A model generated the notes under the pieces. The model saw only the letters and a program-made list of their open reading frames with translations, was not told the DNA's origin and ran no database searches. Shown piece by piece: positions 737-4,686 of a stretch of 12,733 nt of DNA. Every line of letters starts with the position of its first letter. The first letter of the stretch is position 1. The stretch comes from a bacterium (GTDB lineage Bacteria > B130-G9). The stretch spans positions 1 through 12,733 of the forward strand of contig JAGHCW010000100.1 of the NCBI GenBank assembly GCA_021160245.1. Direction: 5' to 3'. A program made the position numbers and the translations under genes.

Positions 737-766
737 GCTATCTTGCCGGACCAGCAAGCCGATTTC

Positions 767-932
767 GGAGTGCGGAGGCCAGGCGCCGCTTTCATTGGTG
801 TTGGCTTGACACCACATAATGAATTGCTTTGTCAGCACGAAGGATGTGGAATCGAAAGTAACCGGCCTATTGATCAAAGCGATGCCGCGTCAAGCCGCGT
901 CAAGCTAAAGCGGAGTCAAGCCTCCGCACTCC
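767..932. repeat. REPIN/BIME-like element, copy 1
   Basis: The outer ends are a perfect 13-base inverted repeat: GGAGTGCGGAGGC at 767-779 and its complement at 920-932. Inside lie four hairpin units, two pointing each way. They are 772-789 (degenerate), 798-815 (GTGTTG, loop GCTTGA, CACCAC), 884-901 (GCCGCG, loop TCAAGC, CGCGTC) and 910-927 (GCGGAG, loop TCAAGC, CTCCGC). The loop of three units is GCTTGA or its complement. The last 52 bases match copy 2 (2219-2270) at 47 positions. The element fills the space between the convergent beta-helix and DoxX genes and may also act as a two-way terminator. Its form resembles REP doublets (REPINs), which RAYT transposases mobilise in other bacteria; no such transposase is in the window. 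Confidence 0.75.
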
Positions 933-957
933 AAAGCACCGTTGACTGCAAAGGAAT

Positions 958-1434
958 CTAGACCTTTCGGTCGGGGCTCTTGCGCAATAGGTCGAAGATG
1001 AACGAATATCCCAACATCGCTATCAGGAAGGTATTTCGGATTATGACATCAAGGCCCGCTCGTTCACCCTCTCCCGTAGTCGTGAAACAGCCGCACGCGA
1101 TGTCTAGGCCCCGGAACAAAGCTGCCGCGCTCGCTACGATGAAGACAACAAGAAGCGACCCGGTTACGGCCGAGGCGGCGTCAGAAAACGGCCCCAAGAT
1201 GAGGCATAGGCCGATTACTAGCTCAATCCAGGGCAGAATGACCGCGAAGAGGTTGATGAACACAAACGGGACTATCTTGTAGTTGTCAACCATGATGGCG
1301 AACTTATCGGGATGAACAATCTTGTCGAGGCACGCATAGACGAATACGAAGCCCACTGTCATCCTGAATAACGTCGCGACGACCCTATTCCAGAGAATCA
1401 ACTTAATTGTATCTCTCGCTGAACGTTTACTCAT
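958..1434 (-). CDS. MauE/DoxX-type redox-associated membrane protein
   Basis: A 158-residue integral membrane protein with about four hydrophobic segments, near residues 18-36, 56-80, 86-107 and 128-148. The pattern of segments, the ELVIG stretch at 71-75 inside the second, and the C-x-C pair (Cys114, Cys116, in DIACGCF) before the last segment fit the MauE/DoxX group. Members are linked to disulfide or sulfur redox chemistry at the cytoplasmic membrane; MauE itself is needed for maturation of methylamine dehydrogenase. The ATG overlaps the stop of the rhodanese gene as ATGA (1431-1434), so the two are probably translationally coupled, and no strong separate ribosome site is visible. A joint role in handling thiol or persulfide groups at the membrane is inferred. 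No methylamine-utilisation genes are nearby, so a role in that pathway is not supported. Confidence 0.8.
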   Translation of the reverse strand: MSKRSARDTIKLILWNRVVATLFRMTVGFVFVYACLDKIVHPDKFAIMVDNYKIVPFVFINLFAVILPWIELVIGLCLILGPFSDAASAVTGSLLVVFIVASAAALFRGLDIACGCFTTTGEGERAGLDVIIRNTFLIAMLGYSFIFDLLRKSPDRKV

Positions 1435-1946
1435 CTTGACACAGGCCCCTTGTCGCCATACTCCCTCATCCCCCCGGAGAAAACGAATATCGTCCGCCCA
1501 AGCTCCAATCGAAGCGATTCTGCCAGCTCAAACGCCTCGTCACACTCAATGTCGCTGCAATATGCGATAATATCGCCCGCCCCATTAAGAGACGCTTTGT
1601 GGGTCGCATACGCGGCCTCAAAATCCTCGGCGGGGATGTTGATCGCGCCCGCTATATGACCGGAAGCAAATTCCGACGGCTTTCTTGCGTCAACGAACAG
1701 AGCCCGGCCGCCCTTCTGAAGCGCCAGAGCCTTCGCCAGACCGATCACGGTGATGGTTGCCTCCTGACGCTTGGCCTGGGCCTTTGCCTTCTCAAGTATC
1801 TTCTGCTTTGGTGGCTTGTAGCCGAATAGGTCCACGTTCGGCGTGCGCACGGCATTGACGATAAGGCCGATCGCGCTCGCCATCACCACCAAGAACAGCG
1901 ACCTTATGATGATCCTCTTAACAAAAATCTTAACTGCCGCAATCAC
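1431..1946 (-). CDS. Membrane-anchored rhodanese-like sulfurtransferase
   Basis: A 171-residue protein with a basic N-terminus, one membrane segment (about 12-33), a charged linker (about 43-63) and a single rhodanese domain (about 65-171). Rhodanese marks are FVDAR at 84-88, GHIAGAINIP at 96-105 and the active-site loop starting at Cys130 (YCSDIECDE), the Cys that would carry the persulfide. A second Cys sits five residues on (Cys135). The FSGGM stretch near 156-160 corresponds to the usual C-terminal glycine motif. The start is GTG with GAGG about 10 bases upstream. The loop is rich in acidic residues, unlike the positively charged loop of thiosulfate sulfurtransferases, so the natural substrate is uncertain. 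It is the first gene of a two-gene operon with the MauE/DoxX-type gene. The domain faces the periplasm if the anchor has the usual N-in orientation. Confidence 0.85.
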   Translation of the reverse strand: MIAAVKIFVKRIIIRSLFLVVMASAIGLIVNAVRTPNVDLFGYKPPKQKILEKAKAQAKRQEATITVIGLAKALALQKGGRALFVDARKPSEFASGHIAGAINIPAEDFEAAYATHKASLNGAGDIIAYCSDIECDEAFELAESLRLELGRTIFVFSGGMREYGDKGPVSR

Positions 1947-2331
1947 AGCAATTTCGCCTCAACATTTCATATAGTATTCACGCCCTCATGACTCGCCCAT
2001 TTAGGCCGATGTTTAATGAATAACACAAAACAGGAAGATTGATCAATAGGGCGAGGGAATCCTCAATAATCAGATTGAGTCAGATGGTGCTGGCTTTTTG
2101 GAGTACGGTGGCTCGACACCGCTTTCATTGGTGGTGGCTTGACACCACCCTCTCATGGATAGCCTTTTTGGCGCTTCAGACAGGGGTTCGGGAACCTAGA
2201 TGCCAATTGATCTGGGTTGATGCCGCGTCAAGCCGCGGCAAACCAAAGCGGCGTCAAGCCGCCGCACTCCGAAATCACCCAACGGGTGCAACTCACAGAA
2301 GGGCCGGCATTCCCCTCTCCCATTGCCTGCC
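1947..2331. other. Intergenic region between propeller gene and rhodanese operon
   Basis: 385 bases without a credible gene. The left part (1947-2050) is A+T-rich and must hold the minus-strand promoter of the rhodanese operon; a TACTAT sequence is present there but no convincing -35 partner. A small inverted repeat, CTCAAT at 2062-2067 and ATTGAG at 2074-2079, precedes the hairpin element at 2100-2270. The rest shows nothing recognisable. Confidence 0.5.
2100..2270. repeat. REPIN/BIME-like element, copy 2
   Basis: Same layout and orientation as the element at 767-932. The outer 26-base arms (2100-2125 and 2245-2270) are inverted copies with four differences, all transitions. Four hairpin units are present: 2105-2122 (CGGTG paired with CACCG, loop GCTCGA), 2130-2149 (seven-pair stem, loop GCTTGA), 2222-2239 (GCCGCG, loop TCAAGC, CGCGGC, perfect) and 2248-2265 (GCGGCG, loop TCAAGC, CGCCGC, perfect). 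Compared with copy 1, the fifth pair of the last stem changes from A-T to C-G on both sides, so pairing is kept. It lies between the rhodanese start and the end of the propeller gene, and could also terminate the latter's transcript. Confidence 0.78.
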
Positions 2332-4686
2332 CTACTCAATCGAGAATGGGGCTGAGGCGATGTGGCCGATGATTCCTGAGCTATTGGAGAATGCTGCGAA
2401 CCAGGCGTATTGGCCTTTGGGGAAACCTTCAGTAATGGTCGTTTGGAAAAACTCGAGGCGGCCTGTCTGGGTTCCCGGTCTTATCGACTGCGTCATCAAG
2501 ATGTTCGCGGCCTCGGTGAAGTTTGGGAAGAAGAGGAGCGAGCCGTCGGGCAGCAGTATCGCGATCACGAGTTGAACTTCCCACCACGCGCTGCTGAAGT
2601 TCGTCTCGATGACCGAGGCGGTCATGACGTCACCCTCGCGATAGCTGAGAGAACGGTCCATCGCTATCTGCAGCGACGGCAAGGGGTTTGGGGACCCCAC
2701 ATTTGTCAGCCTGCTGATCCCATACCCTTCCGAGCCGAACCACTTCACACCATTTTTTGCGCAGGCAACGCAGCAGATGTTGACGTCCTTGCCCTCTCGT
2801 CTTTGCACGAGGCCGCTCGTCTGTGAGGTGTACGTCGTCCATTCGATGCCGTCAAAGGCAGATACACCTCCACCAATAGTGCCACCGGCGCCATGGGCAA
2901 ACCACTTCACATTGCTCTCATCGACCGCCACCTGTACCGCCCTGTTAGATAGAATCCCTGAATTGGCGGTGTCGTAAAGCGTGACCGAATCCCCGTCGAA
3001 TGAGAAGACAGATGGCTGCATTCCGCCCGTCTCCGAGAGCGTGCCCCAGACGATGCCGTCAAGGTCGATTGCCAGAGAGGAGACACCGCTGTTTACCTCG
3101 ATTGCCACATTCCGCCATGAATCGCCCTCCGGCACGTAAAGCATTCTAAAACCTCCACAGTAGGGCAATTCTGCAGAATCGCCGAACGCCACGGACTGAA
3201 CTACATCGAACTCGCGGCCCTCGGGAAGAGCAACTCTCGTCCAAACGTCCCAGTCGAACTTGAGCACGCCGCCCTTAACGCCAACCCATACGTTATTCTC
3301 AGGATCAATCAAAAGGCATCGCGCCTCGCAAGAATCGAAATATGTCACTCCATTGCTGAAATTGCTCCAAGTCGCCCCATCAAACCTCTGAAGCGAGAAC
3401 TTGTCGGGAGAGGAATCGATCGGTCGATACCCAGCCAGTGTCCAAAGTGCCCCGTCCGGCGCCTCGACCATGTCCCAAAAATTCGGACTCTCGAGGTCGC
3501 TGGTCTCGCTGGTCCAAGTTCGCCACTCGCCATTCTCGAGCCGGCATATACCCGAACCTCGCGCCACAATCCAGACCGCATCAGAGAACTTGGAAGGCAC
3601 AATCCTAGTATGACTCGGTGCATCCAGAAGCCCCAGCTCCGGTGGGCTATAGATCGATTGGAGACCATCGCTAATCCTAATGAATCCCTCATCCGTAAAA
3701 ACCCAAAGCGCTCCATCTAGGTCAAAGAGCATCTCCGTGAAATCCGTAATTGGCGAGGCGGTGCGGACGGGAACGATACCCCAGATGTCGTCATGCAGCC
3801 TGCAGACGCAGCCTGACGTGCCCTTCACAAGACCATAAATATCTCCATCTGGCCCAATGGCAAGCCTCTTGACCGGCCCTGGCAGAGAGCCTTCGGACGC
3901 AGAATACGTCGCCCAGTCGTTCCCATCAAACAGCACGACATCCCCATCGAGCGCCATCCACAACCACCCCTGGCTGTCGAAGAGCATGTCATAAGAAAAA
4001 GTACCATCTGGCATTTCAGAATCGCCCGGAGCGAGGCGGACCCAGTGATCCGAATCAACGAAGTAGAGGTATAAGCATTGAAGATATTCTGGAGGCATGC
4101 CGCCCAAGTTCTCCAGAATGACGCAGGCAAGGACCTTTGCATCATCATTGTAGGCCATGTTTGAACAGCCGAAATCGCCGGGCAGTATTGTGCTTTGGGA
4201 TGTGAACGAGGACCATACGTCGTCCTTAATGCGACATATCCCATATCTAGTCCCGGCCCACACAGAGCCATCAGCCCCGCCGCAAACGCTTACTACCTGG
4301 CTATATGGCAGAGGGCTGTTCTCGGATGTATAGATAACTGAGTAAAGCTCCTTGTATAGCACCAGTCCATACTCCGAGGCGATCCAGAGGCCGTCGAAAT
4401 TGGCATGAAGGTCCCAGATATAGGATGGAATGCTCACGGCGTTGTATGGCGAGCGGTGCCGCCAACTCATCAAGCCGCCGGAGAGCCTGCCCTGAAGAAG
4501 ACCGCTCATATCGCAGTCGCTCCCATGCGTCCAGATGGACCCATCGGGCGCCATGGTAACGTTTTCAACGCTTCGCCACCCTGGCGCCGTGAAGTTCTGC
4601 CATTCGTCAGCAAGCGCAACGCCGCACGGCGCAATAGAAACCAGAAAGACCGAGAAAATAAGCACAAGAGCATTCTTTGACATCAT
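2332..4686 (-). CDS. Secreted beta-propeller protein with C-terminal beta-sandwich-like tail
   Basis: 784 residues. The first 27 or so form a Sec signal peptide (basic start, hydrophobic core 6-20, likely cleavage after ALA at 24-26). At least twelve blade-type repeats follow, marked by D-G-x-x-W or N-x-V-K-W-F strands near residues 48, 98, 139, 239, 279, 324, 368, 411, 464, 542, 591 and 645, often followed by G-x-G-(I/V)-x-(R/K)-(L/F). This is the two-component-regulator-propeller (Reg_prop) pattern, and the number suggests two propellers. Residues about 665-784 lack it and look like a beta-sandwich or Ig-like tail. No membrane segment, kinase or sorting tail is seen, so this is the propeller alone, exported; ligand and role are unknown. 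Two ATG codons stand in a row after GGAGGG; the second (4683) has the better spacing, so the true start may be one codon later. The gene lies 89 bases behind the Tyr/Cys-rich gene. Confidence 0.85.
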   Translation of the reverse strand: MMSKNALVLIFSVFLVSIAPCGVALADEWQNFTAPGWRSVENVTMAPDGSIWTHGSDCDMSGLLQGRLSGGLMSWRHRSPYNAVSIPSYIWDLHANFDGLWIASEYGLVLYKELYSVIYTSENSPLPYSQVVSVCGGADGSVWAGTRYGICRIKDDVWSSFTSQSTILPGDFGCSNMAYNDDAKVLACVILENLGGMPPEYLQCLYLYFVDSDHWVRLAPGDSEMPDGTFSYDMLFDSQGWLWMALDGDVVLFDGNDWATYSASEGSLPGPVKRLAIGPDGDIYGLVKGTSGCVCRLHDDIWGIVPVRTASPITDFTEMLFDLDGALWVFTDEGFIRISDGLQSIYSPPELGLLDAPSHTRIVPSKFSDAVWIVARGSGICRLENGEWRTWTSETSDLESPNFWDMVEAPDGALWTLAGYRPIDSSPDKFSLQRFDGATWSNFSNGVTYFDSCEARCLLIDPENNVWVGVKGGVLKFDWDVWTRVALPEGREFDVVQSVAFGDSAELPYCGGFRMLYVPEGDSWRNVAIEVNSGVSSLAIDLDGIVWGTLSETGGMQPSVFSFDGDSVTLYDTANSGILSNRAVQVAVDESNVKWFAHGAGGTIGGGVSAFDGIEWTTYTSQTSGLVQRREGKDVNICCVACAKNGVKWFGSEGYGISRLTNVGSPNPLPSLQIAMDRSLSYREGDVMTASVIETNFSSAWWEVQLVIAILLPDGSLLFFPNFTEAANILMTQSIRPGTQTGRLEFFQTTITEGFPKGQYAWFAAFSNSSGIIGHIASAPFSIE

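Follow-up and report, generated by a model that had tools for sequence, protein, structure and literature searches.

A mirrored four-hairpin, REP-like module probably dispersed as the interior of a MITE in a genome inferred to belong to Candidatus Coatesbacteria

The window – the whole 12,733-nucleotide stretch of DNA that was analyzed – contains two similar elements of four hairpins each, raising the question of what kind of repeat these are, how they spread and why their stems stay paired. The first-pass annotation proposed REPIN-like elements moved by a RAYT transposase, with the folded form under selection. Both of the mirrored elements that it described are present, one at 767-932 and the other at 2100-2270, with lengths of 166-171 bp. 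Each has an outer pair of GGAGT-tagged hairpins and an inner pair, arranged as mirror images, and single-stranded DNA folding of both beats shuffled sequences by far (z = -5.4 and -4.0). The inner hairpins are of two kinds, GCCGCG-GCTTGA-CGCGGC and GGTGGTG-GCTTGA-CACCACC; because these are not equivalent, the element has a direction. Changes of the fifth stem pair had been cited for three of the outer hairpins, where A-T, C-G and T-A indeed occur, but the left outer hairpin of copy 1 had been omitted, and there an A opposite a G breaks the pair (Table 1).

Both copies belong to a four-hairpin repeat family dispersed in what we infer to be a Candidatus Coatesbacteria genome. The genome-wide search for the arm that had been proposed earlier returned 55 matches with ≤3 mismatches in the window's own genome, compared to 2 for a reversed-pattern control. 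With a covariance model built on one half of the element, we found 62 half-element matches in the same genome, and three other genomes from its family gave 48, 55 and 139. Rfam gave no match for the element, and we rejected a structured-RNA family on that ground; literature on GGAGTGCGG gave only unrelated matches among the matches listed.

We examined the surroundings of the module by extending alignments outward from copies in the window's own genome. Most copies examined share flanks that end in the inverted repeat CCCCAATAATCAGATTGA, about 320 bp apart. In 25 elements, terminal inverted repeats (TIRs) of 16-18 bp are present, with CCCCAATAATCAGATTGA at both ends and up to 4 mismatches. These units resemble MITEs: they are 264-380 bp long (mostly about 320 bp), lack coding capacity and occur in dozens of copies. 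Exact direct repeats abut the ends of nine of the 25 (4 bp in five, 5 bp in four), compared to about 0.08 expected from cross-paired flanks, which gave 0.17% for each length; the other 16 lack an exact 4-5 bp duplication. TIRs combined with 4-5 bp target duplications are the signature of a cut-and-paste MITE.

The window copies are consistent with this organization to different degrees. The MITE profile built from the window's own genome matches 2063-2299 (nhmmer, 3.5e-66), and the left TIR of copy 2, CCTCAATAATCAGATTGA, has one mismatch to CCCCAATAATCAGATTGA, compared to six for the next best match on the same strand of the window. The limits first assigned to copy 2 were thus too narrow, as conserved sequence runs from ~2061 to at least 2299. 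The probable right TIR of copy 2 overlaps the 3' end of an ORF at 2332-4686. No TIR is recognizable on either side of copy 1, and no target duplication is visible at either window copy. As a separate observation, the ORF at 2332-4686 encodes a Reg_prop, beta-propeller-like protein, and the degenerate MITE end at 2332-2352 may supply its last codons and stop.

Table 1. Coordinates of the repeat features in the window
Feature	Position	Strand	Basis
MITE carrying copy 2	2061..2352 (right end estimated from degenerate TIR)	-	nhmmer, left TIR
Left TIR of copy 2 MITE, CCTCAATAATCAGATTGA	2061..2078	+	17/18 vs CCCCAATAATCAGATTGA
Probable degenerate right TIR, CCCCATTCTCGATTGA	2337..2352 (limits approximate)	-	sequence reading; missed by ungapped scan
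Four-hairpin module, copy 2	2100..2270	-	sequence, folding
Copy 2 outer hairpin, GGAGT tag, variable pair T-A	2100..2125	+	sequence, arm pattern
Copy 2 inner hairpin, GGTGGTG-GCTTGA-CACCACC type	2131..2149 (limits approximate)	+	
Copy 2 inner hairpin, GCCGCG-GCTTGA-CGCGGC type	2220..2238 (limits approximate)	-	
Copy 2 outer hairpin, GGAGT tag, variable pair C-G	2245..2270	-	sequence, arm pattern
Copy 1, decayed MITE remnant holding module 767-932	762..940	-	nhmmer, 1.7e-29
Copy 1 outer hairpin GGAGTGCGGAGGCCAGGCGCCGCTTT, variable pair disrupted by A facing G	767..792	+	
Copy 1 outer hairpin, variable pair A-T	907..932	-	

We therefore favor, with a probability of roughly three in four, a reading in which the four mirrored hairpins form a REP-like module of about 170 bp that resides mostly within a MITE of about 320 bp, the latter being dispersed through its TIRs by a DDE transposase supplied in trans. 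Such an enzyme would cut at the TIRs and move the whole unit. We looked for a transposase with matching TIRs among genes of PF01609 and PF13701 and, at the loci that were read, in the DNA enclosed by TIR pairs, and found none. A separate pattern was noted near elements at four loci (L002, L020, L022 and L046), where sequence similar to GAGGCTGTC(C/T)AATAAG comes after several copies. This resembles the inverted repeat flanking a DDE transposase elsewhere in the window's own genome (L192), which we take to be IS1182-like. By this likeness of sequence, the insertion sequence may insert into these repeats.

Spread of the unit looks like ordinary cut-and-paste transposition and not like RAYT activity. 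Y1 transposition by the IS200/IS605 mechanism makes no target-site duplication, so the 4-5 bp duplications and TIRs around most of the copies examined in the window's own genome do not support the RAYT dispersal proposed in the first-pass annotation. Nor did we find the predicted RAYT gene with the same hairpins at its ends in six genomes, including the window's own, a search limited by the incompleteness of the MAGs. The sole Y1 transposase match in the window's own genome is a truncated remnant that covers 52 of 121 model positions before the frame diverges, with no arms nearby, and none of the Y1 loci found in a further five genomes (three same-family members and two distant hairpin carriers) is flanked by the element. 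Of the features of a RAYT-moved REPIN, the module has the inverted pair of tagged outer hairpins; its tag is GGAGT, with no GTAG tag on the module and no flanked RAYT gene. Insertion without target duplication does not describe the MITE-borne copies, and bare module copies are too few to judge.

A RAYT could still have acted earlier or elsewhere: the module might be a REPIN-type element, moved by a RAYT now or formerly, that landed in a MITE and was then amplified by it. Consistent with such an origin, tagged hairpins stand in inverted pairs and are strongly conserved, bare tagged doublets of about 52-54 bp occur in distant genomes (L035 and L198), relatives have some copies of the module outside the MITE, and in one relative (G001) some MITEs with the same TIRs hold a different interior, including a GTAG-type REP pair. 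A further genome (G002) encodes an intact IS200-like Y1 gene (L050, about 1326-1938) with inverted GTAG-tagged hairpins (GTAGCCGTAGGCGGGAGCCTACGG) on both sides, an arrangement like a REPtron. Since the six searched genomes yielded no GGAGT-flanked Y1 gene, the window's own genome has no intact one and the module lacks a GTAG tag, we regard this origin as possible but somewhat doubtful. The copies outside the MITE suggest that the module may once have moved independently; one of them (L078) has an 8-bp flank duplication, the single such case. At L078 and L112, in G003 and G001, similar genes have the bare module directly behind their stop codons; to judge by a resemblance in C-terminal sequence, these genes may encode DNA methyltransferases.

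We then consider why the hairpins persist. The covariation claimed from the two window copies extends to the family: over 32 half-elements from the window's own genome, pairing holds in 96.1% of the stem cells, and the covariation score is 0.344, compared to 0.168 (sd 0.015) for shuffles and ≤0.184 for slid partners. The outer hairpin's fifth pair by itself occurs as C-G, T-A and A-T; the covariation of the inner hairpins partly reflects two ancestral inner stems. Conservation is likewise concentrated in the hairpins, with between-copy identity of 74-87%, versus 54% in the core, 52-56% in the adjoining 15-40 bp of MITE and 28-41% further out. We had considered arm-to-arm pairing as the conserved unit and dropped it in favor of local hairpins, as each hairpin stays paired where the arms differ; in G000, 18 of 22 hairpins are paired though the two arms differ in 9 of 11 elements.

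The module also appears to invert in place. Bounded by the same MITE ends, it is found in either orientation (24 vs 8 in G003, 7 vs 1 in G000), and assembly error in fragmented MAGs is an unlikely source of this pattern. On a tree of 20 copies the orientation label is not clustered, though the tree's resolution is too low for events to be counted. As is known from inverted repeats (PMC8604942, PMC8794818), template switching can homogenize arms and invert spacers, and between inverted arms it would explain the inversion and some, or much, of the compensatory change. Mutation alone might thus account for the paired stems, with template switching rewriting them and flipping the spacer while the fold itself is not selected. 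This fits the inversion and the scattered orientations, but the loops keep a single orientation (0 of 32 halves inverted) and it is hard to see how local template switching would keep hairpins alike in unlinked copies whose cores have diverged; we consider mutation alone unlikely as the whole explanation.

Because template switching at inverted repeats also yields compensatory change, covariation alone does not prove the selection on the fold suggested in the first-pass annotation. The better conservation of hairpins than of the rest of the MITE does favor it, and we view such selection as likely but not proven. Under the MITE reading, the inner module would flip with its stems kept matched, partly by template switching or recombination between inverted arms, and the hairpins would be retained since the folded DNA or RNA matters – a step suggested by their higher conservation relative to the rest of the MITE.

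One specific function would be transcription termination or mRNA stabilization at gene ends. The position of copy 1 between convergent ORFs and of copy 2 downstream of the ORF at 2332-4686 would suit such a role. Across the window's own genome, however, 3 sites are convergent, 11 tandem, 3 divergent and 2 inside ORFs, and no preference for gene 3' ends was seen, on crude ORF calls and small numbers. The lack of an Rfam match and the shortness of the T runs after the stems also weigh against it, making retention for this purpose improbable.

To place the module more broadly, we searched beyond the family. A stricter arm pattern matched in 4 of 288 genomes outside it, and these matches include, besides the bare doublets, a 102-bp four-hairpin form with different stems. 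Doublets and four-hairpin forms with other stems outside the lineage suggest a wider GGAGT-tagged REP-like family, from which the module probably descends through capture by the MITE. More tentatively, these GGAGT-tagged palindromes may constitute a REP-like class of their own, separate from the GTAG and CGTC superfamilies, present in several distant bacteria and captured by a TIR transposon, in which the four-hairpin module repeatedly inverts in place between fixed ends.

Each half of this arrangement has known counterparts. Bacterial MITEs such as NEMIS, ERIC, RUP and Nezha are likewise short, non-coding, TIR-bounded, flanked by target-site duplications, present in many copies and rich in secondary structure (PMC3733652), whereas here the interior is a mirrored, REP-like set of four hairpins, conserved above the rest and found in both orientations. 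REPINs, which are REP doublets (PMC3116915), share the inverted tagged palindromes that form hairpins and the concentration of conservation in those hairpins; they differ from the present module in that it has four hairpins, a GGAGT instead of a GTAG tag and no linked RAYT that we found, and sits inside a TIR transposon with target duplication. The GTAG- and CGTC-tagged REP superfamilies and RAYT-linked TIR repeats, as the main text of a REP survey describes them (PMC3733652), are similarly short stem-loops that bear a tag, vary in their stems and often stand as inverted pairs; the tag here is GGAGT, and that main text contains no word beginning GGAG.

MITEs and REP-like hairpins are thus themselves known kinds, and what is new here is a MITE with a REP-like four-hairpin interior. 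By riding inside a cut-and-paste MITE, REP-like hairpins can spread with no need of a RAYT, and the dozens of copies in two orientations provide material for telling selection on DNA hairpins apart from mutation by template switching.
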